From: Chalara sp. BL73
Taxonomy: Eukaryota; Ascomycota; Leotiomycetes; Helotiales
Direction of reading: 5' to 3'
Assembly: GCA_918026815.1 (NCBI GenBank)
Contig: CAKJVC010000151.1
Coordinates: 62,001-126,000 of the forward strand
DNA: 64,000 nt
The position numbers and the translations under genes were made by a program. How positions within the stretch are numbered: the first letter of the stretch is position 1; the number at the start of each line of letters is the position of its first letter. Shown here piece by piece: positions 31,466 through 60,506 of the stretch. The notes beneath the pieces were generated by a model. The model was not told the DNA's origin. It saw nothing but the letters and a program-made list of their open reading frames with translations, and ran no database searches.

Positions 31466-31786
31466 CAATGTACAATTTTACAAGCTCCGTGTCGGGAAAA
31501 ATAAAGTGGCATGCCTTGGCTATGGTGTGTTAAGGATGCCAAGGCCCTAATGGTCAACTTTTCAATCGTACCCGGATCAACTCCTTTTAGATACGGCGTA
31601 CAATATCGCGGTACGGTCGAGTCTTTGACCTTGCTTTGCTTATACGCTTATTAACTTTAATAGCTGAATGAGGCATTCTCAGCCAACTGGCGAGCTACCG
31701 CGTCCCTGTCCCTCCCACTTTGCTACTTTCAAGCCTGACTCAACCAAATTCCTTTTGTTTGCTTTCGTCAATCTCGTCAAGCAACA

Positions 31787-34700
31787 ATGCGTCTTCTACT
31801 ACAAGGCGGGACTGGCGAATTTAGCTTTAGAGAATTTCGCGACGATGAGATCCCTCCCTATGCAATACTTTCACACACATGGCTCGCAGCTCAAGAGGGA
31901 GAGGAGCCCACTTATGACGACCTCATAAATGGCACTGGTAAGAAAAAGCTTGGCTACGAGAAGATCCAGTTCTGCGGAGAACAAGCGAGACGGGACGGCC
32001 TACAATACTTCTGGGTGGACACCTGTTGCATCAATAAAGCAAATTACGCTGAGCTCCAGTATGCTCTCAACTCTATGTTCTGTTGGTACCGCAGTGCAAC
32101 TCGATGCTACGTTTATTTGTCGGATGTTTCTAGCTTTTCAATAAGCACTGATGCTAAGTTCAATCTACAGTCATGGGATTCGGAATTTTGGAAAAGCAGA
32201 TGGTTCACTAGGGGATGGACGCTTCAAGAACTTCTTGCCCCTCGTTCCGTCGAATTTTTCTCCCGTGAACGCGAACGACTAGGTGACAAAAACTCGCTAA
32301 GGCAACAAATTCAAGAAATAACAAGTATTCCTACAGCAGCGCTTCGAGGGGCTTCTTTATTTCAGTTCAGTGTGGATGAACGATTTTCATGGATGGAACG
32401 CCGCCAGACAACTCTTGAGGTAGATAAAGTGTACTCATTGCTAGGCATTCTTGACGTAAAAATACCCCTTTTCAAAGACATAGAAGCAACGACTGCTTTT
32501 GGACGGCTCCGGGAGGCCATCGACAAGCGGGAAAAATGCATCAAAGAATTACGCCTCACCGATCCTCGTTATGATAAAAAGCGTATTGAGGACACTAAAG
32601 GTGGTTTACTAGAGGATTCGTACCACTGGATCCTTGAAAGCCCTGAGTTCAAACAATGGCGCAGCGCTCAACAGAGCCCACTTTTATGGATTAAGGGCGA
32701 TCCCGGCAAAGGCAAAACGATGCTGCTTTGCGGCATTATTAACGAGCTGGACAAACTAACAGTTGAAACTGCTTTTTTTTTGTCTTACTTTTTTTGCCAG
32801 GCTAACGATTCGCGAATTAATAGCGCTACTGCTGTGCTGCGAGGCCTTATATATATGCTTGTGAATCAGCAGCCATCGCTTGTGTCGTATATCCAGGAAA
32901 AGTACGATTACTCAGGCAAAATGCTATTTGAAGATACGAATGCTTGGGTTGCTCTGTCTGAAATTTTCACCGACATGCTGCAAGATCCAAGTTTGTACAG
33001 CACTTATTTAATTGTCGATGGGCTGGACGAATGCGTAACAGACTTGCCGAAATTGCTAGACTTTATTGTGCAAATATCGTCTGTATCACTTCGTGTTAAA
33101 TGGATTGTTTCCAGCCGCAACTGGCCGGACATCGAGGAACGGCTGGTGAACGTCGGTCAAAATCTCAGTCTTGAGTTAAACGCAGAGTCAGTTTCAGCGG
33201 TTGTTGATATATTTATCCGACATAAAGTGCTTAAGCTGGCACAGCGGAAAAAGTATAACAACAAGGTTCGAGATGCGGTGCTCGACCATTTATCCTTAAA
33301 TGCAAACGGCACTTTCCTCTGGGCAGCTTTAGTTTGTCAAGATCTTGAGAAAATCCCTAAATTAGCTATTCTTGCAAAGCTAAACGATTTTCCACCGGGA
33401 CTTGATGCTCTTTACCAGCGAATGATAAAGCAAATACGCAATTCGGACTATACTGATCTCTGCAATCGAATACTAGCCTCGATCGCAATCGTGTACCGAC
33501 CTGTCACTTTAACCGAGCTAACATCACTTATCGATGTGCTCGAAGACATGTCTGACGATGTAGAGTCATTGCAGGAAATTATTAGCTTTTGCGGTTCGTT
33601 TCTAACTGTTCGGAAAAATACGATTTATTTTGTACATCAGTCCGCAAAAGACTACCTTCTTTCAAAGGCGTTTAATGATGTTTTTCCTTCTGGAAAGGAA
33701 AAGATCCACTATGACATCTTCTTAGGATCACTTGCGGTTATGTCCAGGACTTTGCGACAAGATGTCTACAGCCTAAACGCTCCCGGATTCACTATCGACC
33801 AGTTGAAACAGCCTAATCCAGATCCACTAGCTGCAGCACGGTACTCTTGTCTCTATTGGGTTGACCATCTCCTTAACTGTGATACTATGGAGAAAACCAG
33901 CAGTGACATCAAGGACGGTGGCTCGGTCAATAAATTTTTATGCCAGAGCTATCTTTACTGGCTCGAGGCACTTAGCTTAATAAGAGGCCTGTCAAGTGGT
34001 ATAGTTATGATTAAGAATCTCGAAAATAAACTTAGCGTAAAATTCTTCACGTTATCTTATAATTTTATTAAAATATCCTAGCTAATCAAGGTCCAGGCTG
34101 ATAAAAGTTCTGACCTATATGCGTTTGTACATGACGCAAAGCGATTCGCCTTACATAATCGATTAATGATTGATCACACACCTCTCCAACTATACTGTTC
34201 AGGCCTTGTCTTTGTCCCGGAAAAGAGCATTATTCGGAAACGATTCGAGAAGTGTATCCCGGCTTGGATCCAAACAAAACCGAAAGTGCAAGCAGACTGG
34301 AGTGCAGTGCTACAAACGCTCGAGGGCCATTCGAGCTCGGTCAACTCTGCAGCCTTCTCGCCTGATGGCAAGCAGATCGTCTCTGGGTCGAATGATAATA
34401 CAGTACAACTCTGGGACGCCGTCACAGGCGTAACGCAACAAACGCTCGAGGGCCATTGGAACTGGGTCAATTCTGTAGCTTTCTCGCCCGATAGTAAACA
34501 GATCGTTTCTGGGTCGTGCGATCAAACAGTACGGCTCTGGGATGTCGCCACAGGTGCGGCACTACAAATGCTCGAGGGCCATTCGGACTGGGTTAATTCT
34601 GTAGCTTTTTCGCCCGACAGTAAGCAGATCGTGTCTGGGTCTAGAGATCAAACAGTGCGGCTCTGGGACGTCGCTACAGGCGCAGCACTACAAACATTTA

Positions 34701-36172
34701 AAAGCCACTCAGGTCGGGTATATTCTGTAGCTTTTTCGCCTGATAGCAGGCAAATTGTTTCTGGGTCAGACGATGAAACAGTACAACTTTGGGACGCTGT
34801 TACAGGCGCGGCATTGCAGACGCTCGAGGGCCATTCGGGCTGGGTCAATTCTGTAGCCTTCTCGCCCGACGGCAAACAGATCGCTTCTGGGTTAGACAAT
34901 GAAACTGTGCAGCTTTGGGACGCCGCTACAGGCGCGGTATTACAAACGCTCGCAGGCCACTCAGGCCAGATTAATTTTGTAGCTTTCTCACCCGACAGCA
35001 AGCAGATTGCCTCTGGGTCATACGATAAAACAGTACGGCTCTGGGACGTTGCTACAGGCGCGGAACTACAGATGCTCGAGGGCCATTTGGACTGGGTCAA
35101 TTCTGTAGCTTTTTCGCCCGACGGTAAGCAGATCGTTTCTGGGTCTAGCGATCAAACAGTACGTCTCTGGGACGTCGCTGCAGGCGCAGCACTACAGACG
35201 CTCGAGGGCCATTCGGACTGGGTCAAATCTGTAGCCTTCTCGCCTGATAGCAAGCAGGTCGCCTCTTGGTCTCACGAGGAAACAGTACGGCTCTGGGACG
35301 TCACCACAGGCGCGGCACTACAAACGCTTGAGGGCCATTCGGGCTGGGTCAATTCTGTAGCTTTTTCTCCTGACAGTAAGCAGATCGTTTCTGGGTCGAA
35401 CGATGACACAGTACGGCTTTGGGACGCCGCCACAAGCGTGGCACTAAAAACGCTTAAAGGCCATTCGGGCACGGTTATATGTGTAGCTTTCTCGCCCGAT
35501 AGTAAACGGGTCGTTTCTGGGTCGTACGATGAAACAGTGCGGCTCTGGGACGCCACTACAGGCGCGGCACTACAGACGCTCGGTGGCCATTTGGGCTTGG
35601 TCAATTCTGTAGCTTTTTCTCCTGACAGCAAACAAATTGTTTCTGGGTCTAGCGATCAAGTACGCCTCTGGGACGCCATTACAGGCGCGGCACTACAAAC
35701 GCTCGAAAACCATTCAGGCTGGGTCAGTTCTGTAGCTTTTTCACCTGACGGCAAGCAGATTGTTTCTGGGTCGCACGATAATACAGTACAACTCTGGGAC
35801 GCTGTTACAGGCGCAGCATTACAGACGTTTAAAGGCCACTCAGGGTCGGTCTATTCTGTAGCTTTTTCGCCAGATGGTAAACAGATCATTTCTGGGTCGG
35901 ATGATGAAACAGTACAGCTTTGGGATGCTGTCACAGGCGCGGCACTACAGACGCTCGAGGGCCATTCAGGCTGGGTCAATTCTGTAGCCTTCTCGCATAC
36001 TCTACTAATATCTAAGAGCTGGATAACGGAAGGTGGCATAAATATTCTCTGCCTGCCTCTTGATTACCGATCACCAACTTGTGTAGCTGTTTGGAACGGG
36101 ATTCTTGTCTTAGGGTATTCATCAGGGAGAATTTATATTCTCGGTTTTCAGGAAGGATTAAAGGCTATATAA
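31787..36172 (+). CDS. HET-NACHT-WD40 NLR-like receptor (HET-E/HNWD type)
   Basis: Exon 1 31787-34036 and exon 2 34091-36172 (54-bp intron, phase 0) give 1443 aa. HET domain at residues 1-250: MRLLLQGG, YAILSHTWL, LQYFWVDTCCIN, RGWTLQELLAP. NACHT follows: Walker A GDPGKGKTMLL, Walker B YLIVDGLDEC, then SSRNWPDIEERL and FVHQSAKDYLL. The second exon has the family linker (FVHDAKRFALHNRLMI, LQLYCSGLVFVP). WD40 units follow: 13 complete and one partial, of 42 residues (unit 11 has 41), consensus LEGHSGWVNSVAFSPDSKQIVSGSxDxTVRLWDxxTGAALQT. This is the architecture of Podospora HET-E, HET-D and HNWD incompatibility receptors, where WD40 sequence decides recognition. All catalytic NACHT residues I can check are present. 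The protein ends in a non-WD40 tail after the broken last unit. Confidence 0.94.
34308..35997 (+). repeat. 126-bp tandem repeats encoding 13-14 WD40 units
   Basis: Units of 126 bp with recurring TCTGTAGCTTTTTCGCCTGA-like and CTCTGGGACG words. Unit 11 lacks one codon (Thr in SSDQ-VRLWD). The units differ mainly at codons right after GH, at the residue after SGS, and next to the DxT motif. Confidence 0.9.
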
Positions 36173-47949: not shown

Positions 47950-50900
47950 TTAAGCTACATCTAACTTATCATAGTCGTCTAAAGGATCATCTAGCAACAT
48001 GCAACATATTCCGCAGAGGCCTCTATTGCCGCTCTCCCCTGCCGCAGTGATAGATGCCATCAGTGCCGCCGCTGTCGGACGCAGGGTTTGCTGTACTATT
48101 AACATGCCCTGAATCCATACCAACACAGCGTTGTCCGTCGGGTAGTTTGTTGCCTTGAGATTTGCAAGTAATTCATGCAAGCCGTCTGGGTTCGTGCGCA
48201 CGTAAGCCTGCCGCGACCCGTGCTCTGAAAGAAACTCGTAAATAAACTCAGCCGCTCTGCCTTTAAGCACCGCAGCCATCTCGAGAAAGACAACGCCTAA
48301 ACTCCAGATATCCGACGATGTGTTCCGAGGTTCATGGTTGGCCACTTCAGGCGCGCAATACTTCGGCGTCATCCCGTTGACTATACTAACCGTAGTGCTG
48401 CCTTCTGCATCCATAAAGTCAAATGCCAGTCCAAAATCCGTAAACAGGACATTCCCGCCATGCACCAAGATGTTGCTAGGTTTGATGTCTTTGTGTCGAA
48501 TACCTTTCCCATGCAAAAACTCGAGCGCCCTTGCTAAGCAGCCAAAGAAAGTGCGTAGCTCTTTGTGTCTGGCTGAATTGGCGCATGCAAGGTAAGTGGA
48601 CAGGTCCATCTCGGCAACAGGAGACATAATCAGGCCCATGTACTTTGGATCAGTATAACTACCAACAAACTCCGCTACATGGCGGTGCTTCAAGTGCTTC
48701 AAGACCTCAATTTCATTAATAAATCGTTTGACGTCTTCTGTTCTGCGTCCGCCAAATATCGTGCTCCGAGGCACTCGCTTTCGTGCGTACTCTCGGAAAC
48801 TGATTAAGCTAAGGATCCGATCAACCTGCCCAAACCCGCCAGTGCCAAGAATACCTTTTTCCTCGAATGGAAGAGACTCGCCGTGACGGAAGTTGCGATG
48901 TTGTCCTTTGTCGCCTTTCTCAAGGTCTAGAGATTTGGTCATTACCAAGCTTTGAGCTGCCACAAACTGTGCACACCGACTGGGATGTAGACAGTATGGA
49001 AGGCTCCTTTCAGTAACGGGAAACCAGTGGTCGGAAAAGCCTAGGTCGATGAAAGCGTCAAGAAGGTCCAGGCAGTTGATAGTCCGAAGAGTAATGTACG
49101 TTCGCGGAACCTTGCTCCATCGAGCGTTGACTTGGCTCAATAAAAGAGACACTTGCTTAATCTCTGAGTCGTTGTACACTATTTGCCTTTCGGTGCCTTC
49201 AACAAAAAAGTCGCCCAGGCGGCTTAGAATGGCTTCCGCGCGTGGACTGGACGTGGCTGACGATGCTCGGGCGAGAATCACTTTCTGTAAAAGTTTCTTA
49301 CTTGCGAGTGTGTCTTCCTGCTCGGCACCTAGCACTCTCTCCCGTTGCTGAACTGACTGGCGCAACAACTGTTTTGCTTCGGAGTATTTCTGTTGCTCGT
49401 GAAGCGTAACTGCCAGCCTGTATTTGCTCCAAAGTGTGTCTTCATGTTCGGCACTGAGCACTTTTTCTCGCTGCTGAACCGACTGCCGCAACAGCAGTTC
49501 TGCTTCGGGGTACTTCTGTTGCTTGTGAAGCGTGACTGCTAGCCTGTATTTGCTCCAAAGCGTGTCTTCATGTTCGGCACCTAGCACCTTTTTTTGTTGC
49601 TGGGCTAACTTTTGCAATAGCTGTTCTGCTTCGGGGTATTTTTGCTGCTCGTGAAGCGTAAATGCTAGCGTGTATTTGCTTTTAAGGGTGTTTTCATGTT
49701 CGGCACCTAGCACTTTCTCCCATTGCTGAACCGACTGGCGCAGCAACTGCTCTGCTTCGGGGTGCTTTTGCTGCTCGTGAAGCGTAAATGCTAATGCGTA
49801 TTTGCTTTCAAGCGTGTTCTCATGTTCGGCACCCAGCACTTTCTCCCGTTGCTGAACCGACTGCCGCAACAACTGTTCTGCCTCGAGGTGCTTCTGCTGC
49901 TTGTGAAGCGTAAATGCCAGCCTGTATTTGCTCCAAAGTGTGTCTTCATGTTCGGCACCTAGCACTATTTCTTGTTGATAAGCCAACTCTCGCAACAGCT
50001 GCTCTGCTTCGGGGTGGTTCTGCTGCTCGTGAAGCGTGACTGCCAGCCTGTATTTGCTCCAAAGTGTGTTTTCATGTTCGGCACCTAACACTTTTTCTTG
50101 TTGCCAAACCAATTCCCGCAACAGCTGCTCTGCTTCGGGGTACTTCTGCTGCTTGTGAAGCGTAAGTGCCAGCGTATATTTGCTCCAAAGTGTGTCTTTA
50201 TATTCGGCACCTAACACCTTTTCTTGTTGCTGAACCAATTCTCGCAACAGCTGCTTTGCTTCGGGGTGCTTTTGCTGCTCATGAAGCGTAAATGCTAATG
50301 CGTATTTGCTTTCAAGCGTGTTCTCATGCTCGGCACCCAGCACTTTCTCCCGTTGCTGAACCGACTGCCGCAACAACTGTTCTGCTTCAAGGTGCTTCTG
50401 CTGCTTGTGAAGCGTAAATGCCAGCCTGTATTTGCTCCAAAGTGTGTCTTCATGTTCGGCACCTAACACTTTTTCTTGTTGCCAAACCAATTCCCGCAAC
50501 AGCTGCTCTGCTTCGGGGTACTTCTGCTGCTTGTAAAGCGTAAGTGCCAGCCTGTATTTGCTCCAAAGTGTGTTTATATATTCGGCACCTAACACTTTTT
50601 CTTGTTGCTGAACCAATTCTCGCAACAGCTGCTCTGCTTCGGGGTGCTTCTGCTGCTCATGAAGCGTAAATGCTAATGCGTATTTGCTTTCAAGCGTGTT
50701 CTCATGTTCGGCACCTAGCACTTTTTCTCGCTGCTGAACCGATTGCCGCAACAACTGTTCTGCTTCGGGGTATTTCTGTTGCTCGTGAAGCGTAAATGCC
50801 AGCCTGTATTTGCTCCAAAGCGTGTCTTTATGTTCGGCACCTAGCACTTTCTCCCGTTGCTGAACCGACTGTCGAAACAGCTGCTCTGACTCGGCGTACT

Positions 50901-50976
50901 TCTGCTGATTGTCGAGCGTGACTGCCAGCCTGTATTCTTTCTCTCCTGCTTTCCTTTTACTGCTCTGGAACATCAT
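47950..50976 (-). CDS. TPR-array serine/threonine kinase
   Basis: One open frame, 1008 aa. Residues about 15-560 are 13 tandem 42-residue TPR units (consensus YRLAFTLHEQQKYPEAEQLL, then REKVLGAEHEDTLWSK). A conserved linker follows (WSKVPRTYITLRTI, GFSDHWFPVTERSLP). The kinase domain covers about residues 705-970: glycine loop LGTGGFGQV, lysine in YARKRVPR, alpha-C INEIEVLKHLKHRHV, catalytic IRHKDIKPSNILV (HKD variant of HRD), FTDFGLAFD, YCAPEVA, SSDIWSLGVV. All residues needed for catalysis are present. The C-terminal tail is cysteine- and acid-rich. It faces a HeLo-pseudokinase gene head-to-head across 471 bp. The role is inferred: repeats as sensor, kinase as transmitter. An upstream ORF overlaps the start. 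Confidence 0.92.
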   Translation of the reverse strand: MMFQSSKRKAGEKEYRLAVTLDNQQKYAESEQLFRQSVQQREKVLGAEHKDTLWSKYRLAFTLHEQQKYPEAEQLLRQSVQQREKVLGAEHENTLESKYALAFTLHEQQKHPEAEQLLRELVQQQEKVLGAEYINTLWSKYRLALTLYKQQKYPEAEQLLRELVWQQEKVLGAEHEDTLWSKYRLAFTLHKQQKHLEAEQLLRQSVQQREKVLGAEHENTLESKYALAFTLHEQQKHPEAKQLLRELVQQQEKVLGAEYKDTLWSKYTLALTLHKQQKYPEAEQLLRELVWQQEKVLGAEHENTLWSKYRLAVTLHEQQNHPEAEQLLRELAYQQEIVLGAEHEDTLWSKYRLAFTLHKQQKHLEAEQLLRQSVQQREKVLGAEHENTLESKYALAFTLHEQQKHPEAEQLLRQSVQQWEKVLGAEHENTLKSKYTLAFTLHEQQKYPEAEQLLQKLAQQQKKVLGAEHEDTLWSKYRLAVTLHKQQKYPEAELLLRQSVQQREKVLSAEHEDTLWSKYRLAVTLHEQQKYSEAKQLLRQSVQQRERVLGAEQEDTLASKKLLQKVILARASSATSSPRAEAILSRLGDFFVEGTERQIVYNDSEIKQVSLLLSQVNARWSKVPRTYITLRTINCLDLLDAFIDLGFSDHWFPVTERSLPYCLHPSRCAQFVAAQSLVMTKSLDLEKGDKGQHRNFRHGESLPFEEKGILGTGGFGQVDRILSLISFREYARKRVPRSTIFGGRRTEDVKRFINEIEVLKHLKHRHVAEFVGSYTDPKYMGLIMSPVAEMDLSTYLACANSARHKELRTFFGCLARALEFLHGKGIRHKDIKPSNILVHGGNVLFTDFGLAFDFMDAEGSTTVSIVNGMTPKYCAPEVANHEPRNTSSDIWSLGVVFLEMAAVLKGRAAEFIYEFLSEHGSRQAYVRTNPDGLHELLANLKATNYPTDNAVLVWIQGMLIVQQTLRPTAAALMASITAAGESGNRGLCGICCMLLDDPLDDYDKLDVA
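49296..50934 (-). repeat. 126-bp tandem repeats encoding 13 TPR units
   Basis: Units 5 and 9 encode identical 42 residues, and units 3-4 resemble units 6-7, so blocks of several units have been duplicated as well as single units. Variation is confined to a few codons. Confidence 0.88.
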
Positions 50977-51074
50977 TAGTGCCCGGCAGATGCTAAAGCA
51001 CGCTTGCGTTGGATAGCTTGGAGGATAGAGGCGATTGCGGCTTGGATGGGGATGGCGGCATCAGCGGGGGACAT
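50976..51074 (-). other. Upstream ORF overlapping the TPR-kinase start
   Basis: A 32-codon frame starts at 51074 (MSPADAAIPIQAAIASILQA). Its TAA shares one base with the first ATG of the kinase gene (TAATG). The peptide is a plausible amphipathic helix. It may control translation by reinitiation or be an N-terminal exon whose splicing I could not resolve. Confidence 0.5.
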
Positions 51075-51447
51075 ATAAAGGCTGTAGTCTCAGCTCGCTA
51101 GATTTAAGGTCTGTGTAAGAAGGAATAATCCATCCGCATTCACTGAGCATTGAAGCAAATCTTCTGCTGGTAGAAGACTGGGTTTCTGCCAGTAGGTGCC
51201 CACGAACGTTCCTTTTGCACAGGGCTGAGATGGCGGTGGCACAGGTCCCAGTGCGGCCTTCGAGCTGGTTGGCTCTGCTACCGCCGAAATAAAATGACGG
51301 CGTTTCTGATGGGTGCACCGACCCGGCATCTTTGCAAACTTCAGTCTTTGCCCATTTTATCAAAGAAAGCCAGCATAACAAGTGCGCGATCGCGGCGGCT
51401 AATAGCTATTGCGACGTGAAAAGCCGCCCCACCAAGTTTCTTGAGTG

Positions 51448-53446
51448 ATGGTAGACCCACTCTCTGTTCTTGGCGCCGCGGTTGGTGTCACGTCCCTTAT
51501 CATACAACTCACAGATGAATGCGTCAAAGGTAGAAAACCCCAAAAATACGGAGAACGAGCTAATATTTTGAGGCTATAAACTATATCATGAAGCAGTAAA
51601 CCTACCCCAAACTCATCGCTACCTTCTTGTGCGCCTTCACATCGAACAACACCGTTTCCTTAACTTCGCATTCGAGGCTGGCCTTTTGAACGTAGATGGA
51701 GTAGTCTGCAGCACACTCCAAGTCAACAGATCCTTACTGTTAGCTATTCTTGCAGAGATTAAGTTGTTGTTCGAGAGTTTTGCAGCGGCAAACGGCAAAT
51801 ATGAGAAGGAGGTGGCCCACAGTCCAGTCAATTGGGTCGACCACTCGTACCCTGAGCTCGACCTGACGAACTTTCTCTGTATTGCAATGAGCGACTATAC
51901 ACAACTTGAGAGAGAGGAGCTGGCCAGCAAGAGAGCAGAAGCTGCAAAGCGTATTCGCGGAATAGGGAAGAGCATCACGCAGACAGCCAAGAATTTGCGG
52001 ACTATTGTGATGGAGCCAAAACGTCTCGTTTGGGCGGCAGTGGACAAAGATGCCTTTGAACACCTCATTTCGAAACTGGATGGCCTGAACGCATTCCTTG
52101 TATCACTATTGGACAGCTCGCAACTCCAGAGATTGCAGGACTCAATGAGCACGGCGTATTTGGAGATCCTACAGCTTCGTAACGACGTCGGGGAGCTCAC
52201 AGCTCTTGTTCAGGCGCTAGCTCCGGCAGCAGAAACTGAGATTAATATCCCTGCCGGAACCCTTAACCTTGAGAGCAACGCATTGTCTCAGGTAGTTGCA
52301 GAACAAACGGTGATGCAAAAGAAGAAAGAGAGCTATTTAAGACGCCTTGCAAATATCAAGATTCAGTTCACCAAAATCAACAATCTGAGCAACAGTAGCG
52401 TCGCTACTTCAGACCACAGCAAGTTTACCGATAGCCCGCTATCACTGGGCGACTTTGGCTTTGCTAAAGTGGCACCTGAGGTTGGAATTCTTCAGCACCG
52501 GACGCGAACTACTTACCGGGGTAGGAGAGTTTGGATTGAGTGGAAAGACACTCCGGCCACTGGTTTTATTGCCGCTGATGAGCAAGTAGAGTGGCGGATT
52601 GGACTCCTGGCGAATCTCCTTCGCTCAGCGAAACCAGAAGGCTTCAGAGCAGCATTGTGTTTGGGGTATATCAAGATCCTACACGCGGATAGTGCGACCC
52701 AGTTTGGTATTGTATTTGAAGAGCCGTTGATCCATGGTGCGGAGTCCAAGATTGCTACCCTTCGAGACTTGCTTGGACGACAACCACATCCATCGCTCAG
52801 TGCGCGCCTAGTGTTGTGTGCCGTGTTAGCTCGTTGTGTTCACAGCCTCCATGCAGTTAACTGGTTGCACAAGGGCCTACAGCCAGACAATATTGTATTC
52901 TTGTCCTCGTCCGAATTACCAAGTCTCAACGAGCCATTCTTGTCCGGCTTCGAGCTGTCCCGGCCTAGCACCATGGATCAATTGACAGAGAAGCCGGGAT
53001 TTGACCCACGCAAAGACATTTATCGCCATCCGAATGCGCAATCCAGTCAAACGGACAGCAAATATCGCAAGTCATATGACATCTACAGTCTAGGCGTCTT
53101 GATGATTGAGGTCGCGCTGTGGAAGCGGATTGAGGATGTAGTGCCATTGGAGGATCTAGCAAGGGCTAGGCCATCCGCGCTTCGAGAAATACAGCCTTGG
53201 CTGCTAGGTTTGCCGTTGGGCACAGGCTTCCCATTGGACACTACCGAGTCTGGATCTTGCCTGCAGCAAGTTGCCTTTGCGTGCGGCGATTCGTTCCATG
53301 ATATCGTTGAGCAGTGCCTGAGAATGGATACTGTAGAGAGTCCTAAATATTTTGGGGAGAAGGAAGCAGCGATTGGTTTGAGAGTGCAAAGAGTAACAGA
53401 ACAGGAGATTGTGAAGAAGTTGGACCGTATTGTTAGTTTAGCGTAG
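51448..53446 (+). CDS. HeLo-domain pseudokinase (MLKL-like architecture)
   Basis: Exons 51448-51529 and 51573-53446 (43-bp intron, phase 1) give 651 aa. Residues 1-210 are a HeLo domain: start MVDPLSVLGAAVGVTSLIIQ, then NLPQTHRYLLVRLHIEQHRFLNFA and LLLAILAEIKLLFESF. The rest is a degenerate kinase fold. A WIEWK lysine remains, but the catalytic motif is LHKGLQPDNIVFL (Asp replaced by Gly) and the DFG region is LSGFELSRP (Asp lost). A YDIYSLGVLMIEVALW helix follows. HeLo is a membrane-targeting cell-death domain, as in HET-S. The four-helix death domain plus pseudokinase recalls mammalian MLKL. It diverges from the TPR-kinase. Intergenic distance 471 bp suggests a shared promoter. Functional coupling is inference. 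Confidence 0.9.
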
Positions 53447-54770
53447 CGCCGAACATGGGGGCATGCTTTGGATTCGAAAAAGGAGAATTCCATTCTGGAT
53501 AAGATCAAGAAGCTGATTGCTGGAATCGATCCATACCTGCTTAAGGAAGTGAAGAAACGAGGTAGACAAAGTACGCAATGTTACAGGCAGATACGAAAGC
53601 AGCCACGAGCCACGTGGTTGCTTATGGAAATTTCTAGAAGAACACCATACTCTATAAAAACTTGGTATAATGTCCATAAAATATGACGTGACTAAGTTAG
53701 CGTGGTGCAAATACGATATTGTATAAGCGAGATAAATCCTTCGCCTTATCGAGAAGCTTGGCGTTTTTTGTGCCTATTGTCCGGATAAACTCGGCACGTA
53801 GATATTCTTTTGCTCTGTGTTTTCAAAGCCTTGAAGCCATATTCTTTCTTAATCGAACTTTCATGTCGCGGCCCCGAAAATCAGAGACAAGTCGATATTC
53901 CTGATAGAGAAGGGGAACAACGAATCAGCTTCCGACGCCACCAACGGGAGGATCGCCAGCATAATCAAAACCGCAATATTTTTTTACCGCAATCCGAATC
54001 CTTACAAGGAAGCGGCTGAAAAACAACAGCACACTGGACATAGCTCTATATACTCGCGAGGGGGAAACTTGGAACCCCTAAACGTTAAGCTCTTCTCGGC
54101 ACAGTGGGTTTCTCGCCACTCAGGGACGGAGGTTGGGATAGATGTATGATAAATGGTCATCCTATCCAGCTTGGCGGGCTCAATTGGTACAAGAGCATTT
54201 AGCAGCGGGACACAATTCCCCAAAAACCTTAATCGAGTACGCGCAAGCTTTTGTCGAAAATTACGGGACTTGAAATTGATCATCCAAAACGTGAAGAAGT
54301 GGATTACGGGGTTACACTTGCTGTGATTACTTTGGCCTTTATCTCGGTCATGAGTGCTGTCAGTGCGGCGGACACAGCGTTTGTTACGAAAATGGTCCTA
54401 TGAGCCTGGAAAGGTGGTTTGTAGGTGCTTCAATACAAAAATGCTGAACTAAGTAGAAAAAGTAAGAACTCGGGAGCTGTCGGCTAAGCCAAGTTCAGGC
54501 CACTAGTCGAACACAGGCGAGTCGGTCATGTGCTAACCGTGACAGGCTGCAAGTGGTTTGTTTCCGTTAAACCCAGAAAAAGTACTTAGAGCTATATCGA
54601 AGCCTCCCGCTCAATTAACTGTCCCGGAAGCCGATAAAATAAAAGTAGGTTCCTGTGTGTAAAACAAAGTATTGCAAAGGCCCGCCCGTAACGCCAATAT
54701 TAGCAAAGGCTTTTACTTCGCTGCATAATTTTATCAAGCAAGATGCTTATACGCTTAAGAAAACGAGTAT
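53447..54770. other. Intergenic with possible transposon debris
   Basis: Short lysine-rich frames after the HeLo gene and an open stretch near 54260-54400 (with VTLAVITLAFISVMSAVSA) match no family I recognise. May be part of the decayed element that ends at 55144. Confidence 0.4.
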
Positions 54771-55144: not shown

Positions 55145-55559
55145 AGATTGCTGCGAAATGAATAATAAATCATTGCTCTGTTCTTCAGCTTGAATAGGTT
55201 TCTTGAGGCAGCTCGCACTGGCCACGTGACCGGTTACTGTACATTAGAGTTAGTCTTCGTGGTATCCTCGGCGCAATAGAAGGGATGAATCATCGCCTGC
55301 CAGATGTCAGTGAGTTGAATCATTCCTGAGACCTCGCGTACCAAGCATCCCGACAATTTGCAACCTCCAGGGTATTTATGTGACCTCTCGACTTCCTAAT
55401 CCTCAACCATGCCATACCCTGCTCTATCAAAACTAGCAAGTTTGAGGTGCGAAAGTGGCGTCAATGCTCTGCTCGTACTGTACGAATCATTAGCTCTGTT
55501 GTTTGCTCAACACGTATTTATACAGTACTAATGTCGTACAGTACTGTACGCTTCACAAA
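55145..55559. other. Intergenic, no gene recognised
   Basis: 3' flank of the NB-ARC-TPR gene. The word TCGTACAGTACTGTACG near 55525 is palindromic and may be a small hairpin. Confidence 0.45.
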
Positions 55560-58500
55560 TCAATCCAATCCATCAATCTTGGCCACAGTCCTTTGGACTC
55601 GAAATACAGCAACATCTTGCTCGGACTTCCATGCAGCCAAAGCTGTGCAAGATGATAGGGTGTCTGGATGACCAACTCCTAAAACACGTTTTCTTGATTG
55701 TATGCATTCCACCATAAGTTTTAGAGCTTCGGTTTCTTTGCCAGTCCCTTTCCACGTAAACGCCAGATTGCTCATGCTGGCTAGCGTGTCTGGATGGTCT
55801 GCGCCGAGCTTTTCCTTGCGAATCTCCATTACTTGAACCTCTAGCTTTTCAGCAGCGTCCCACCGGCCTTGATATCTGTACGTCGATGCCAGGTTGGCTA
55901 TGCTGGTCAGGGTGCGTGGATGGTTCTCGCCGAGCTTTTTCTTGCGAGTCTCCATTACTTGCGCCTCTAGCTTTTCGGCAGCATTCCACCGGCCTTGATT
56001 CGTATACGTTGACGCCAGATTGCTCATGCTGTTTAACGTGGAAGGATGGTTCTCGCCGAGTTTCTTCTTGCGAGTCTCCATTACGTGCACGTTTAGCTTT
56101 TCAGCAGCGCTCCACCGGCCTTGATTCCCGTACGTCGACGCCAGGTTGGCTATGCCGGTCAGCGTGGAAGGATGGTCCACGCCGAGCTTTTCCTTGCGAG
56201 TCTCCATTACTTGAACCTCTAGCTTTTCAGCAGCGTCCCACCTGCCTTGATTTCTGTACGTCGATGCCAAGTTGGCCATGCTGGTAAGCGTGTGCGGGTG
56301 GTTCTCGCCGAGCTTTTTCTTGCGAGTTTCCATTACTTGCACCTCTAACTTTTCGGCAGCATCCCACCCGCCTTGATCCCTGTACGTCGACGCCAGATTG
56401 CTCATACTGTTTAACGTGGAAGGATGGTCCTCGCCGAGTTTCTTCTTGCGAGTCTCCATTACGTGCACGTTAAGCTTTTCGGCAGCGCTCCACCGGCCTT
56501 GATTCCTGTACGTTGACGCCAGGTTGGCCATGCTAGTCAGCGTGGAAGGATGGTCTTCGCCGAGATTCTTCTTGCTCATCTCCATTACTTGCACCTCTAG
56601 CTTTTCGGAAGCATCCCACCGGCCTTGATTTCTGTTCGTCGACGCCAGGTTAGCCATGCTGGTCAGGGTGTTTGGATGGTCTTCGCCGAGCTTTTTCTTG
56701 CTCGTCTCCATTACTTGCACCTCTAGCTTTTCGGCAGCGTCCCACCGACCTTGATTCCTGTACGTCGACGCTAGGTTGGTCATGCTGGTGAGCGTATGGG
56801 GATGGTCCTCACCTAGCCATTTCTTGCGAGTCTCCATCACTTGCACAAATAGCTCTTCGGCAGCATCCCACCGACCCCTAAGCTGGTACGCCAAGCCTAC
56901 CATTCCCACACTATTTAGCGTATCATTATGCTCTCGGCCGAAGATCCTCTTTCGAACTTTCATTGCCAGAACCGACATTTTCTCCGCTTCTAATCCTTTC
57001 CCCATTCTCCACGCGTACCATGCTGCCTTGTATAATATCGAAGTCCAGTCTTTTAATGAGTCTTGGTCCTCCGGCTGCTGTGCTACTGCCGATTGCGCGT
57101 GCGGAAAAAGCGTCTGACACCTTACCCAATTCTCGTACTCTCCCGTTGGGAGCTCTACATCAAGATTCTTAATAAATTGCTGTTTCCACTTTTCTTGTTG
57201 CTTATGAGCTTTAAGCCATTCTCGCATTGCCAACTGCACCAGTCCGTGCATTTCAAAGGTTGTGCGGTCTGTATTGACAGAAATGAACGAGTAATTTCGT
57301 AGGACCAAGACATCATCTTCAAATCTATTACTCACGCTAGACTGTGATGCATTGTCTTCTTCATCATCACTATAGTCAGCACTGATATTAGCATAGTTAT
57401 TCTTGTTGCTCTCTTTCTGCTTTTGCCGCGAGTTTTCCTGCTCATCTCGACTTAGCAGAACCTCGGGGATTCCTTGCCGGTCAAAAAAGCTCATGAGCGA
57501 CAACAAGTCAGCAGCTGATGGTCTTATCTCACGGATATGATCAAATGATATTTGCCATGTAATGAGGATAGAGTTCTTCGCATCCCAATCTCGATGAAGC
57601 TGTTCGCCCTCATAGTTAAGGAGACTAGTTCTCTTCCGATCGCTTTTCCGAAAGTCCTGGAGGTACTCTCGCACGGAATAGCGAGGCGCTCTTTGGGAAA
57701 TGTATGCAGCAGCCTGAGCAATGGCAAGCGGCATAAACTCGAGCGCCGCGACGAGCTTAATAGTGTCATCTCCGTCGTCGTGCCATTCTAGCTTCTTCTC
57801 TAAGAGCGCTAGCGCATCTGGCCTACTCATTGGTTCGATTGCGATAATGTCGCGCTGTTCAACCAGCTTGAAAGCCACATCTTTGCTCCGTGTTGTTATG
57901 AGAATCGATCCATTCGGGCACTGTGGAAAGTATGACACGAGCGGTCGCACGTCTCTATTGCCTATGCCATTCGTTTGCCCAACCTGACCGGTGCTTTGAG
58001 GTTTGACGAGGAAGCTAGCATCGTCCACATTGTCAAGTATAAAAACCCACTTTCTCTTCCTATCATTGCGCAGCCAGTCGTGCACAACCTGGAATATGTT
58101 GGCCTGTGGATTCTGCCGCCCGGAAATCTTGATATAGTTTGCAATATCCCGAAAGCCCTGCTCAAACCGTGCGGCATTGCTTGCGTGGACCCAGAATACC
58201 CACGTTTCTGACGACAGGTCTCTAGTTCGGTACGCATATTCGATGGCGAGTTGTGACTTACTTCGCAGCCGTTAGCCATGTGCATGGCGGAAATGTTTAT
58301 GCTCACCCGACGCCGCCTAGGCCAACGAGCGCAGTTCGAGACCCTGAGACAGCGCATTTCTGGTAGATCTGATCAAGTATTATCCCTCGCTCGACAAAGT
58401 CTGTGTCACGACTAAATGGTATGACGATCGACGGGTTCGGTGGGGTCTCTAATCGCTCTGGCGCGGGGGCCGTCGTTAGCGTCCGCCGGCTTGAACTCTT

Positions 58501-58608
58501 TGCAAACTCACCAGGAGGGGCATGGTTATGAAACTCAGTATTAACCGGACCGTTGATTGTTCCGGCTTGGAAGCCGGAGTTGGCGCCAAAAGACATCGTG
58601 GATGCCAT
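55560..58608 (-). CDS. NB-ARC-TPR NLR with amyloid-motif-like N-terminus
   Basis: Exons 58307-58608 and 55560-58260 (46-bp intron inside the P-loop codons, phase 2) give 1000 aa. The first 35 residues are short and Gly/Asn-rich (FGANSGFQAGTINGPVNTEF), resembling the amyloid signalling motifs at the N-terminus of many fungal NLRs. The NB-ARC domain follows: IVIPFSRDTDFVERG, P-loop GLGGVGKSQLAIEY, Walker B KWVFILDNVDD, GSILITTRS, MPLAIAQAAAYI, ITWQISFDHIR, and MHGLVQLAMREWL. The C-terminus has 10-11 TPR units of 42 residues (consensus NQGRWDAAEKLEVQVMETRKKKLGEDHPSTLTSMANLASTY). The motif would nucleate a partner carrying the same motif; no such partner gene is seen in this window. Confidence 0.92.
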
Positions 58609-59087
58609 CGCAGCAGAGTAGTTTTGTGAAAAGATGTTGATAGTAGCTGAGTGTGTCCATTTGTTCGCAATCCTCTAGCCGCAATGGCTTGAGGTTACCC
58701 TCCAATCAAATTGAACGGTGGCTCTAAAGCCTTGGCTCCAGGCTTAGGTCTTCGTTTTACGCCTACTTCTGTCATCAACACACACAAATGGCAGATCCTC
58801 TTAGTATCGCCGCTAGTGCCGTGGGTATTGTTGTGCCAGCCACGCACGGCACACGATTACGCCTAGAAGATTGCAGCTGCCTAAGGATGCGCCTAAAACC
58901 GTCAAGCGCCTGGTGAAAGACAGTGAAGGAACCAGTATTATCACGATATATTGACTTCTAAAATCGAATACTGCACCCCACGTATCACGGCAAAATTCGT
59001 AATCTTATATTATATCATACTATATTACGAGGTACTGCTTTCTCGCAGGCTCGAAAAATCCTTTTAGTATCACAGCCTTGGTCCCTA
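58609..59087. other. Promoter side of the NB-ARC-TPR gene, LTR flank
   Basis: No gene seen. Includes an A/T-rich stretch with TCGTAATCTTATATTATATCATAC. Confidence 0.4.
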
Positions 59088-59322
59088 CTTCATGACCCTG
59101 GCCCTATCTCGCTTAGAGCCTTTTAGGGCTCGGCCCCTGACCCCACAGGGCCTCGCTTATGCTGGCCCCCTGGCCAGTTTCCTGTATATAAAGCGCTGCC
59201 TTCCTCCCCTTCTTTATTCTGTAGCTTGTTCTCTTCATTATAACGATTGATAGCCGTTCAAACCTTTGAGTCCTCCTCCCTGATCTACGGGTCGAGATCC
59301 CTGTTCGCCTTGAGTAGTTACA
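59088..59322 (-). mobile_element. Solo LTR, GGGATCTCGATCCGTAGATCT family, 235 bp, inverted
   Basis: Reverse complement starts TGTAACTACTCAAGGCGAAC, contains GGGATCTCGACCCGTAGATC and TTTATATACAGG, and ends GGGCCAGGGTCATGAAG (decayed from GGGCCAGGGCCGTGACA). Only clearly inverted copy of this family in the window. Confidence 0.72.
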
Positions 59323-60506
59323 ACCTCCGGCGATGGACTCAGAAGATGGAAAACTAGCGTGGCAAGATCGAGCAAATGTGGAATTCTTCAAGCAAGGGCA
59401 AATCAAAGCTATGTCAGAGCAGCCTCAAACAACCAGCTCACTGTTAATTCCGTCGTCAGTACAGCGGCCTTGTAAGGAACTTTCGTTTCCGTGCGGAGCA
59501 TGAGCTAACCTTGCCTTCGTAGATACAGCTCCGTCCGCCATAGCCACATCATGGAATAGATCAAGAAAAAGACGATATCTACAAAACAAATTGAGGTTAA
59601 GGGTGCTATTACTACAGCGGATCGACAGCCGGTAGTGTTAGAGAACAAGCTTGGTAACACTGTAGGTAGAGAATACAACACAGTCGGGGGGCGAAGGATA
59701 TAAAAGAAAGCTAGAGCTGCCTGAGGGAGGGCAAGATTGAGTCTTTCATAGATTCAAAGGCCTACGCTCCACGTTAATACAATACTATACCTTTGGCACT
59801 TCAAGTCACGTGTCTTTACCTGCTATGTTGCAATCCCTCCTGCTGCCCCTCTGTTTGTTACAATGGCGCTATTACTAATATGTCCTTGTAGATAAACCTC
59901 CACGGAGGTCCTGCGGAAGCACTCACTATAAACCCCTCTCCACAAACAATGTCCGGAAACAGCCTTTTTCAAGCTTACAGCATGTTTTGTTGTGATCAAT
60001 GATAGTATGCCTGGTAGCAATTCTAGTGGAAGTAAACAGAGGTTTGTCGGGCGGCATAATGACATTGTGTTAGAGAATCTCCGAAGTAACGCGGTGTAGA
60101 CATGGAAGTATAGCAACGAAAAAGTCGGACATTGAAATTGTTTCAAAATTACTCTGCCCTAGGATTTTGAACTCTAGCCTTTTATTTTGGTAAAGCATTC
60201 CGTAACTGACACCCCTGCGAGGCGAAATCCCGTAGTACACCAAGGTGCAAAAGTCTCAACACCGGATAATTCAATCGTTTTTAAAGCTTGGAATCTTAGT
60301 ATTCAGACTTGGTTCTCTGATCAGTATCTATGTGTTTATCGGTAATCCAGAAATAGCTCAATTGATCGTGATCGGACTAATATTTCTTGGCGGCTACTTT
60401 CACTATTCAATGATATATCACGCTTTCACAGTCTTATTTTCCTCAAAATTCTGAGAAATTCAAGTATAGTTAGCCAATTATTTACACAAGTGCTTCTCCA
60501 AACATT
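59323..60506. other. Intergenic, no gene recognised
   Basis: A short plus-strand frame at 59333 (MDSEDGKLAWQDRANVEFF) and a hydrophobic one at 60245-60454 have no domain. The words TGTTAGAGAA recur at about 59637 and 60068; they may mark another decayed LTR whose ends I could not fix. Confidence 0.4.

Follow-up and report, generated by a model that had tools for sequence, protein, structure and literature searches.

A head-to-head kinase and HeLo-pseudokinase gene pair of Chalara sp. BL73 as a candidate MLKL-like cell-death module

RIPK3 phosphorylates the pseudokinase domain of MLKL and frees its helical bundle, and in fungi the HeLo domain of HET-S, like the other characterised members of its family, is a membrane-active death domain. 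Both points come from a 2025 review (PMC12881547), which also presents fungal death pathways as often organised in two- or three-gene clusters, names HELL domains joined to kinase or pseudokinase domains in a figure legend, and calls for work on conservation between necroptosis and fungal HeLo-dependent death. In the literature covered, fungal HeLo killers are switched on by amyloid templating from NOD-like receptors (NLRs). According to a 2017 review (PMC5485727), fungal PP and mammalian RHIM motifs stand at non-equivalent places, since the mammalian amyloid builds a kinase complex by which the MLKL pseudokinase is phosphorylated. Here we analyse two divergent genes in a 64,000-nucleotide stretch of Chalara sp. 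BL73 DNA (hereafter the window; contig C130 of the 58.66-Mb fungal assembly G000). One encodes a protein kinase with a tetratricopeptide repeat array (the TPR-kinase), the other a HeLo domain followed by a catalytically degenerate kinase fold (the HeLo-pseudokinase).

We read this pair as an MLKL-like cell-death module of fungi that is triggered by a kinase and whose sensors can be swapped, a reading to which we assign a probability of roughly 55%. The linkage of the two genes, the catalytic split between their products and the MLKL-like profile of the HeLo-pseudokinase are direct observations. From them we infer that the TPR array would sense a ligand or a self/non-self cue and cluster the kinase, which would then phosphorylate the pseudo-activation segment of the HeLo-pseudokinase. 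Phosphorylation would have an activating sign and release the N-terminal HeLo bundle, and the freed bundle would oligomerise at the plasma membrane, breach it and kill the cell. This would amount to the RIPK3-to-MLKL step, with a repeat array substituting for the RHIM amyloid. The features of the two genes are as follows.

50973→47950, minus strand: TPR-kinase gene, a single open frame of 1007 residues whose start agrees with relative P0124
49300..50937, minus strand: 13 TPR units of 42 residues, TPR_10/TPR_12 type (Tandem Repeats Finder, Pfam, unit count)
48904..49206 (approximate), minus strand: conserved region of ~100 residues that separates the TPR array from the kinase and matches no Pfam family; a similar stretch stands before the C9:2068k kinase described below
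48058..48867, minus strand: protein kinase domain with G-loop, beta-3 Lys, HKD, DFG and APE all present (Pfam, alignment)
48001..48015, minus strand: CGxCC cysteine motif close to the kinase C-terminus, present in 112 of 121 kinases (window copy and 120 listed relatives)
50974..51447, no strand: shared upstream region of 474 bp from start codon to start codon, measured from the gene models
51448..53446, plus strand: HeLo-pseudokinase gene of 651 residues, exons 51448-51529 and 51573-53446 (ATG at 51448; relative P0002)
51530..51572, plus strand: GT-AG intron of 43 bp, junction backed by relative P0002
51472..52207, plus strand: HeLo domain (PF14479), residues 9-239, split by the intron (Pfam)
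52406..53443, plus strand: pseudokinase domain, DUF7580, with a kinase fold in the AlphaFold2 model (Pfam, model)

Both gene models are sound, since the HeLo-pseudokinase has its N-terminus and splice junction in common with the annotated protein P0002 of Venustampulla echinocandica, and the TPR-kinase its start with P0124 of the same fungus; the open frame around the TPR-kinase extends over 51060–47950 (minus strand), and its Met at 50973 is the one that matches P0124. An earlier note, made from the window sequence alone, had placed two divergent genes at 47950..53446, and both are there. The shared upstream region, which it gave as 471 bp, measures 474 bp, and its HeLo gene, while right in carrying a HeLo domain and a kinase-like fold, missed the first exon (51448–51529). 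The HeLo assignment is firm (116.9 bits against a cut-off of 23.2, E 1.4e-33) and the HeLo N-terminus is intact; DUF7580 (PF24476) scores 31.1 bits against 27 (E 2.5e-7). In the AlphaFold2 model the two domains are separated by a helix of 39 residues (exon-2 frame residues 236-274), which may correspond to the brace helices of MLKL-like proteins. The kinase domain of the partner matches Pkinase at E 1e-40.

The two genes are paired again elsewhere in the same genome. The best paralogue of the HeLo-pseudokinase lies at C9:2065473-2067056 (34% identity, 245 bits, the next match having 80), that of the kinase at C9:2067921-2069078 (38% identity, 241 bits, next 113). These two adjoin each other on the same strand, in tandem and not head-to-head, and reverse searches from them return the window genes as top non-self matches with 245 and 237 bits. 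Judged from its sequence, the C9:2065k/2068k pair is old. Counting as a locus any HeLo match that shares its strand with a pseudokinase match no more than a gene's length away, we find six HeLo-pseudokinase loci, five in a single frame (C130, C9:2065k, C9:2197k, C3:1404k and C77:53k) and one in split frames (C9:1950k), and a kinase adjoins five of the six. At C130, C3:1404k, C9:1950k and C9:2197k the kinase stands head-to-head, with gaps, taken from start codons, frames or matches, of 474, 400, 353 and 591 bp, respectively. Three of these kinases, at C3, C9:1952k and C9:2195k, exceed the Pkinase cut-off, and ankyrin-repeat frames, which may or may not belong to the same genes, follow 200-340 bp farther on.

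Pairing extends to DUF7580-type pseudokinases as a whole. A separate kinase lies within 5 kb (≤5 kb) of 10 of 28 such loci, where 0.71 would be expected (binomial 9e-10, Pkinase and PK_Tyr_Ser-Thr profiles together), or of 11 if a kinase match at C9:2194.9k is counted; the Pkinase profile alone gives 6/28 against 0.58 (2e-5). The list of 28 omits the GCN2 gene at C62 (L025). These ten are of uneven quality: the C67:242.8k and C9:1379.7k kinases closely duplicate each other and hence are not independent, the pseudokinase match at C9:1381k is short and holds a stop, the C67:260.6k kinase has YFG for DFG, and the C14 kinase is counted on a profile match. Three frames, at C59 (L011), C67 (L013) and C168 (L018), join a kinase (HHDL..N, DFG) and a DUF7580-type pseudokinase (WLHK or WLHE, DFG-less) in one chain; Pfam detects both domains in two of the three and a HeLo match in none, and the C59 and C67 loci have an additional separate kinase within 3 kb. 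At C129:655-661 kb (L012, L051) a pseudokinase frame is followed by a kinase; the N-terminal part of the pseudokinase frame is without a Pfam match and, by eye, may be caspase-like (LLLLDCCYGS). Kinases and DUF7580-type pseudokinases are thus associated in the source genome, where the passenger most often seen is HeLo. We found no mention of DUF7580 in the open-access literature searched.

Linkage is also seen in other fungi. Relatives were taken as the best 120 of 266 HeLo-pseudokinases and the best 120 of 938 kinases, the kinase search admitting proteins of 0.55-1.75 times 446 residues; alignments A1 and A2 contain the window sequence with 91 and 60 of the 120 listed relatives, respectively. 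Among the 120 by 120 listed proteins, 11 kinase/HeLo-pseudokinase pairs lie on contigs of exactly equal size. For contigs of at least 10 kb there are ten equal-size pairs and none differing by 1-20 bases. In all seven assemblies with locus tags in both lists the tags are consecutive (six) or one apart (one):

Venustampulla: 07780/07779, consecutive
Coleophoma: 08787/08788, consecutive
Pseudogymnoascus australis: 005509/005508, consecutive
Gyalolechia sp.: 003128/003129, consecutive
G. fulgens: 001338/001339, consecutive
Protoblastenia: 003985/003986, consecutive
G. marmorata: 007180/007182, one tag apart

The five species whose classification was looked up are Leotiomycetes and Lecanoromycetes. 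The 11 linked HeLo-pseudokinases all fall within the 54 closest relatives, 28 of which are on contigs of at least 8 kb; for 11 of these 28 a listed kinase stands on an equally long contig. Scans of IMG/VR for linked loci found none, and the linkage across species is read from tags and contigs, which carry neither strand nor spacing. With five of six genes paired in the source genome, four of them head-to-head, and seven of seven tagged assemblies linked, the rare adjacency of homologues that the earlier note had named as speaking against its proposal was not found. Kinase and HeLo-pseudokinase distance matrices from 12 linked pairs are correlated (Mantel r 0.87, reached by 0 of 10,000 permutations), a mirror-tree result of little weight since shared species history can yield it. 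Comparison of Bisporella sp. PMI_857 (P0010, P0242) with the window and L027 gives 98.6% identity for the C9 kinase and 87.8% for the HeLo-pseudokinase, whose gene model in that species is without the HeLo start; the window pair may have diverged fast or by alleles.

The catalytic split is conserved in the relatives compared. The window TPR-kinase and its 120 listed relatives all have the catalytic Asp, the loop Lys, the Asn and the beta-3 Lys (121/121 each), and 119 have the DFG Asp. In the window HeLo-pseudokinase the catalytic Asp is replaced (LHKGLQPDN, 52865-52891, plus strand) and GFE stands for DFG, and the motifs of both proteins read as the earlier note had them. The loss that it reported extends to the relatives compared: once three gapped rows of 121 are set aside, the catalytic Asp is found in 0 of 118 HeLo-pseudokinases (Gly in 74, Ala in 41, Ser in 2, Val in 1), and the DFG Asp likewise in none, its place being taken by Gly in all 118, with the DFG Gly changed to Glu in 105. 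By eye, the kinases at C3, C9:1952k and C9:2195k have the catalytic loops HGDVKPEN, HGDLKSEN and HGDMKPEN followed by DFG, DFG and DFS, while their partners at C3:1404k, C9:1950k and C9:2197k read WLHKSIRSDN, WLHKDFQSSN and WLHKNISSSN with DFG in none. On the aligned residues, the split into an enzyme and a dead partner is a shared family property and no accident of the window copy. The best-kept Ser/Thr positions of the pseudo-activation segment, S490 (Ser in 112/118) and T499 (Ser or Thr in 117/117), are the best candidate phosphosites.

The comparison of the HeLo-pseudokinase with solved structures points to MLKL. Its profile, searched against PDB, returns MLKL chains at ranks 1-10 (best E 1.7e-8) and HET-s ('small s protein') at E 9e-4, and GFELS replaces DFG in both MLKL and the HeLo-pseudokinase; no direct match to the MLKL four-helix bundle (4HB) was obtained. 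The closest solved relatives of the TPR-kinase are general Ser/Thr kinases (PKA, CaMK1D, BRSK2, Nek7, PLK4), and no RIPK appears among the best 60 of the 232 solved sequences that it matched, so that a RIPK-like identity is unsupported. Neither protein has a RHIM-like pattern by the simple patterns used (GxQxG or [IV]QxG). The RIPK3-MLKL layout proposed in the earlier note is partly supported: the linkage, the catalytic split and the MLKL-topped profile agree with it, the sequence of the kinase does not.

The repeat array of the TPR-kinase appears to be the changeable part of the system. The 13 high-identity units noted earlier were counted again as 13 units of 42 residues (12.9 copies of 126 bp at 82% by Tandem Repeats Finder), and the DNA of the unit pairs 3/6, 4/7 and 5/9 agrees to 96-98%, a sign of recent unit duplication. 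No overall diversifying selection was found across the 78 unit pairs (mean dN 0.12, mean dS 0.71). Among the same 121 kinases, 31 have no TPR unit, 89 have 1-8 and the window copy alone has 13, these counts being lower bounds given the size limits of the kinase search and a profile built from the window's own units. By Pfam, WD40 repeats take the place of TPRs in P0192, and P0160, P0157, P0148, P0220, P0233, P0234 and P0246 have a kinase domain alone, without repeats; a PH domain accompanies the kinase in P0229 and an RRM in P0244, and the TPR-kinase itself has no NB-ARC or NACHT domain. Together with the ankyrin frames beside three other pairs, this variation in the kind and number of repeats and the recent unit duplication would agree with a signalling kinase whose sensor can be exchanged. 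The CGxCC cluster is perhaps a lipid attachment site. The next relatives of the kinase domain in the source genome are L028, without repeats in the stretch covered, and L029 (C82), in which a HET domain is fused to the related kinase. A frame downstream of the C9 kinase (L027 from 3447, and L047) is presumably La-motif-like, and the relatives P0244 and P0248 carry RRM or LsmAD domains; the C9 kinase may have gained an RNA-binding tail.

The window as a whole is an NLR-rich locus. At 58581-55560 (minus strand) lies an NB-ARC/DUF7779-TPR NLR whose N-terminus carries SFGANSGFQAGTINGPVNTEF; we take its N-terminal motif (GFQAGTINGPVN, SFGANSGFQAGTINGPVNTEF) to resemble fungal amyloid signalling motifs. 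Head-to-head with it, at ~58785-58920 (plus strand), a frame with the N-terminus MADPLSIAASAVGIVVPATHGTRL, presumably like that of fungal HeLo-like proteins, soon reaches stops and looks like a decayed relic. Farther away are a HET frame beside a TPR NLR (17585-13742, minus strand), a HET-NACHT-WD40 gene (31739-36172, plus strand) and a hydrolase-like frame beside a TPR NLR (63881-61149, minus strand).

Other explanations of the pair have to be set against kinase-triggered killing. In kinase-pseudokinase pairs such as STRAD-LKB1 and JAK JH2 the pseudokinase belongs with an active kinase, and the HeLo-pseudokinase might similarly act on the TPR-kinase allosterically or anchor it to the membrane, with a kinase cascade as output and HeLo merely localising the complex. 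The three HeLo-less fusions suggest that physical kinase-pseudokinase pairing may be the older function, the kinase-adjoining pseudokinase of C129 has its Pfam-less N-terminal part in the place of HeLo, and a beta-3 Lys is kept in 100 of 120 HeLo-pseudokinases, so nucleotide binding may persist. Against this, the pseudokinase of the conserved pair is joined to HeLo, known from its characterised members as a membrane-active death domain (PMC12881547), and the HeLo N-terminus is intact in the window protein; we regard the allosteric role as unlikely, though a serious contender. Somewhat less probable, and likewise a serious contender, is that the TPR-kinase restrains the HeLo protein, as a guard or antidote acting by binding or phosphorylation, so that loss or block of the kinase releases killing. 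A tight and mostly head-to-head linkage suits a killer with its keeper equally well as a trigger with its killer, whereas repeat arrays that differ in type and unit count, with recent unit duplication in the window copy, look more like sensors than antidotes, and the HeLo-pseudokinase at C77 has no kinase in the flanks examined.

Two further possibilities arise from the surroundings. The NLR at 58581-55560, ~2 kb downstream and bearing the GFQAGTINGPVN motif, might trigger the HeLo-pseudokinase by amyloid templating, as NWD2 does HET-S, leaving the kinase with other targets. By the patterns tried, however, no such HET-S/NWD2-type shared motif occurs in the HeLo-pseudokinase or the TPR-kinase, a six-frame pattern scan of the window matched that NLR alone, and in other fungi the linked partner is a kinase, which makes templating very improbable. 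Mere adjacency, as a by-product of an NLR-rich, high-turnover region that leaves the two proteins unconnected in action, might be suspected from the several NLRs and two HET domains of the window and from the close duplication of the linked kinases at C67:242.8k and C9:1379.7k. It is hardly credible in view of the reciprocal-best paired paralogues at C9, the five of six paired HeLo-pseudokinase genes, the excess at DUF7580-type loci and the seven of seven linked assemblies; we reject a purely coincidental neighbourhood on the paralogues, the recurrence in the genome and the cross-species linkage.

Kinase-triggered killing by the HeLo-pseudokinase thus remains the reading we prefer, and several points weigh against it. 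Its weakest point is the sign of the interaction, which linkage cannot give. The retained beta-3 Lys counts here too, as does the sequence of the TPR-kinase, which is not RIPK3-like. A structural role for S490 and T499 is possible, since by eye all three kinase-fused pseudokinases share the Ser of the SRP motif and two of the three the T-E. An Asp persists in the C9:1950k pseudokinase (WLHKDFQSSN), which lacks the loop Lys and DFG, so at least this partner is not dead by that residue, and the C9:2195k kinase reads DFS instead of DFG (both by eye). Another output is possible for the C9:2065k/2068k pair, whose kinase is without a TPR array and counts proteins with RNA-binding domains among its relatives. 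At C77, where a HET-like frame follows, no kinase was seen in 49500-53500 or 55300-60000. Finally, no linked kinase was listed for the 66 more distant HeLo-pseudokinases, the kinases compared being the best 120 of 938; this is a limit of the set compared rather than a result. We also put forward, tentatively and with the odds clearly against it, a wider proposal: that there is a whole class of fungal two-gene cassettes with kinase-gated necroptosis, in which sensor kinases with TPR, ankyrin or WD40 repeats would phosphorylate head-to-head MLKL-type HeLo-pseudokinases, and that the HeLo-pseudokinase would be homologous to MLKL over both domains, making the death switch older than the split between animals and fungi.

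Animal RIPK3-MLKL is among the known systems closest to the pair. Both consist of an active kinase and a partner that joins a helical killer domain at its N-terminus to a pseudokinase, MLKL tops the pseudokinase profile ranks, and GFE replaces DFG in both. The fungal kinase differs in its non-RIPK sequence, its TPRs and the lack of a RHIM-like pattern, the fungal genes are adjacent, and phosphorylation in the fungal pair is something we can only infer. Plant MLKLs, reportedly described by Mahdi et al. in 2020, are said to combine a HeLo- or 4HB-type domain with a pseudokinase; they belong to another kingdom, and we know of no adjacent repeat-kinase for them. Fungal HELL kinase/pseudokinase proteins likewise have a HeLo/HELL-type membrane-targeting domain and a kinase-like domain in one chain, whereas the accessible portion of PMC12881547 names the architecture alone, without a dedicated neighbouring kinase. 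The same portion describes nwd2/het-S and protease-repeat/gasdermin clusters in which, as here, a repeat-bearing sensor gene adjoins a membrane executioner gene, the gasdermin clusters having WD40, ANK or TPR repeats adjoining a protease domain. The window pair differs from these in that its signalling domain is a kinase and not an amyloid motif or protease, and its sensor has no nucleotide-binding domain. The open-access literature searched, including the accessible portions of PMC12881547, PMC9815663, PMC10197012 and PMC5485727, with preprints and most subscription papers outside its scope, does not describe a kinase/HeLo-pseudokinase gene pair, while HELL-kinase architecture and two-gene clusters are known (PMC12881547). 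We therefore call the pair a counterpart, wired through a kinase, to the NLR/HeLo and protease/gasdermin pairs, and its recurrence in fungi offers the missing kinase step in the form of small testable cassettes.

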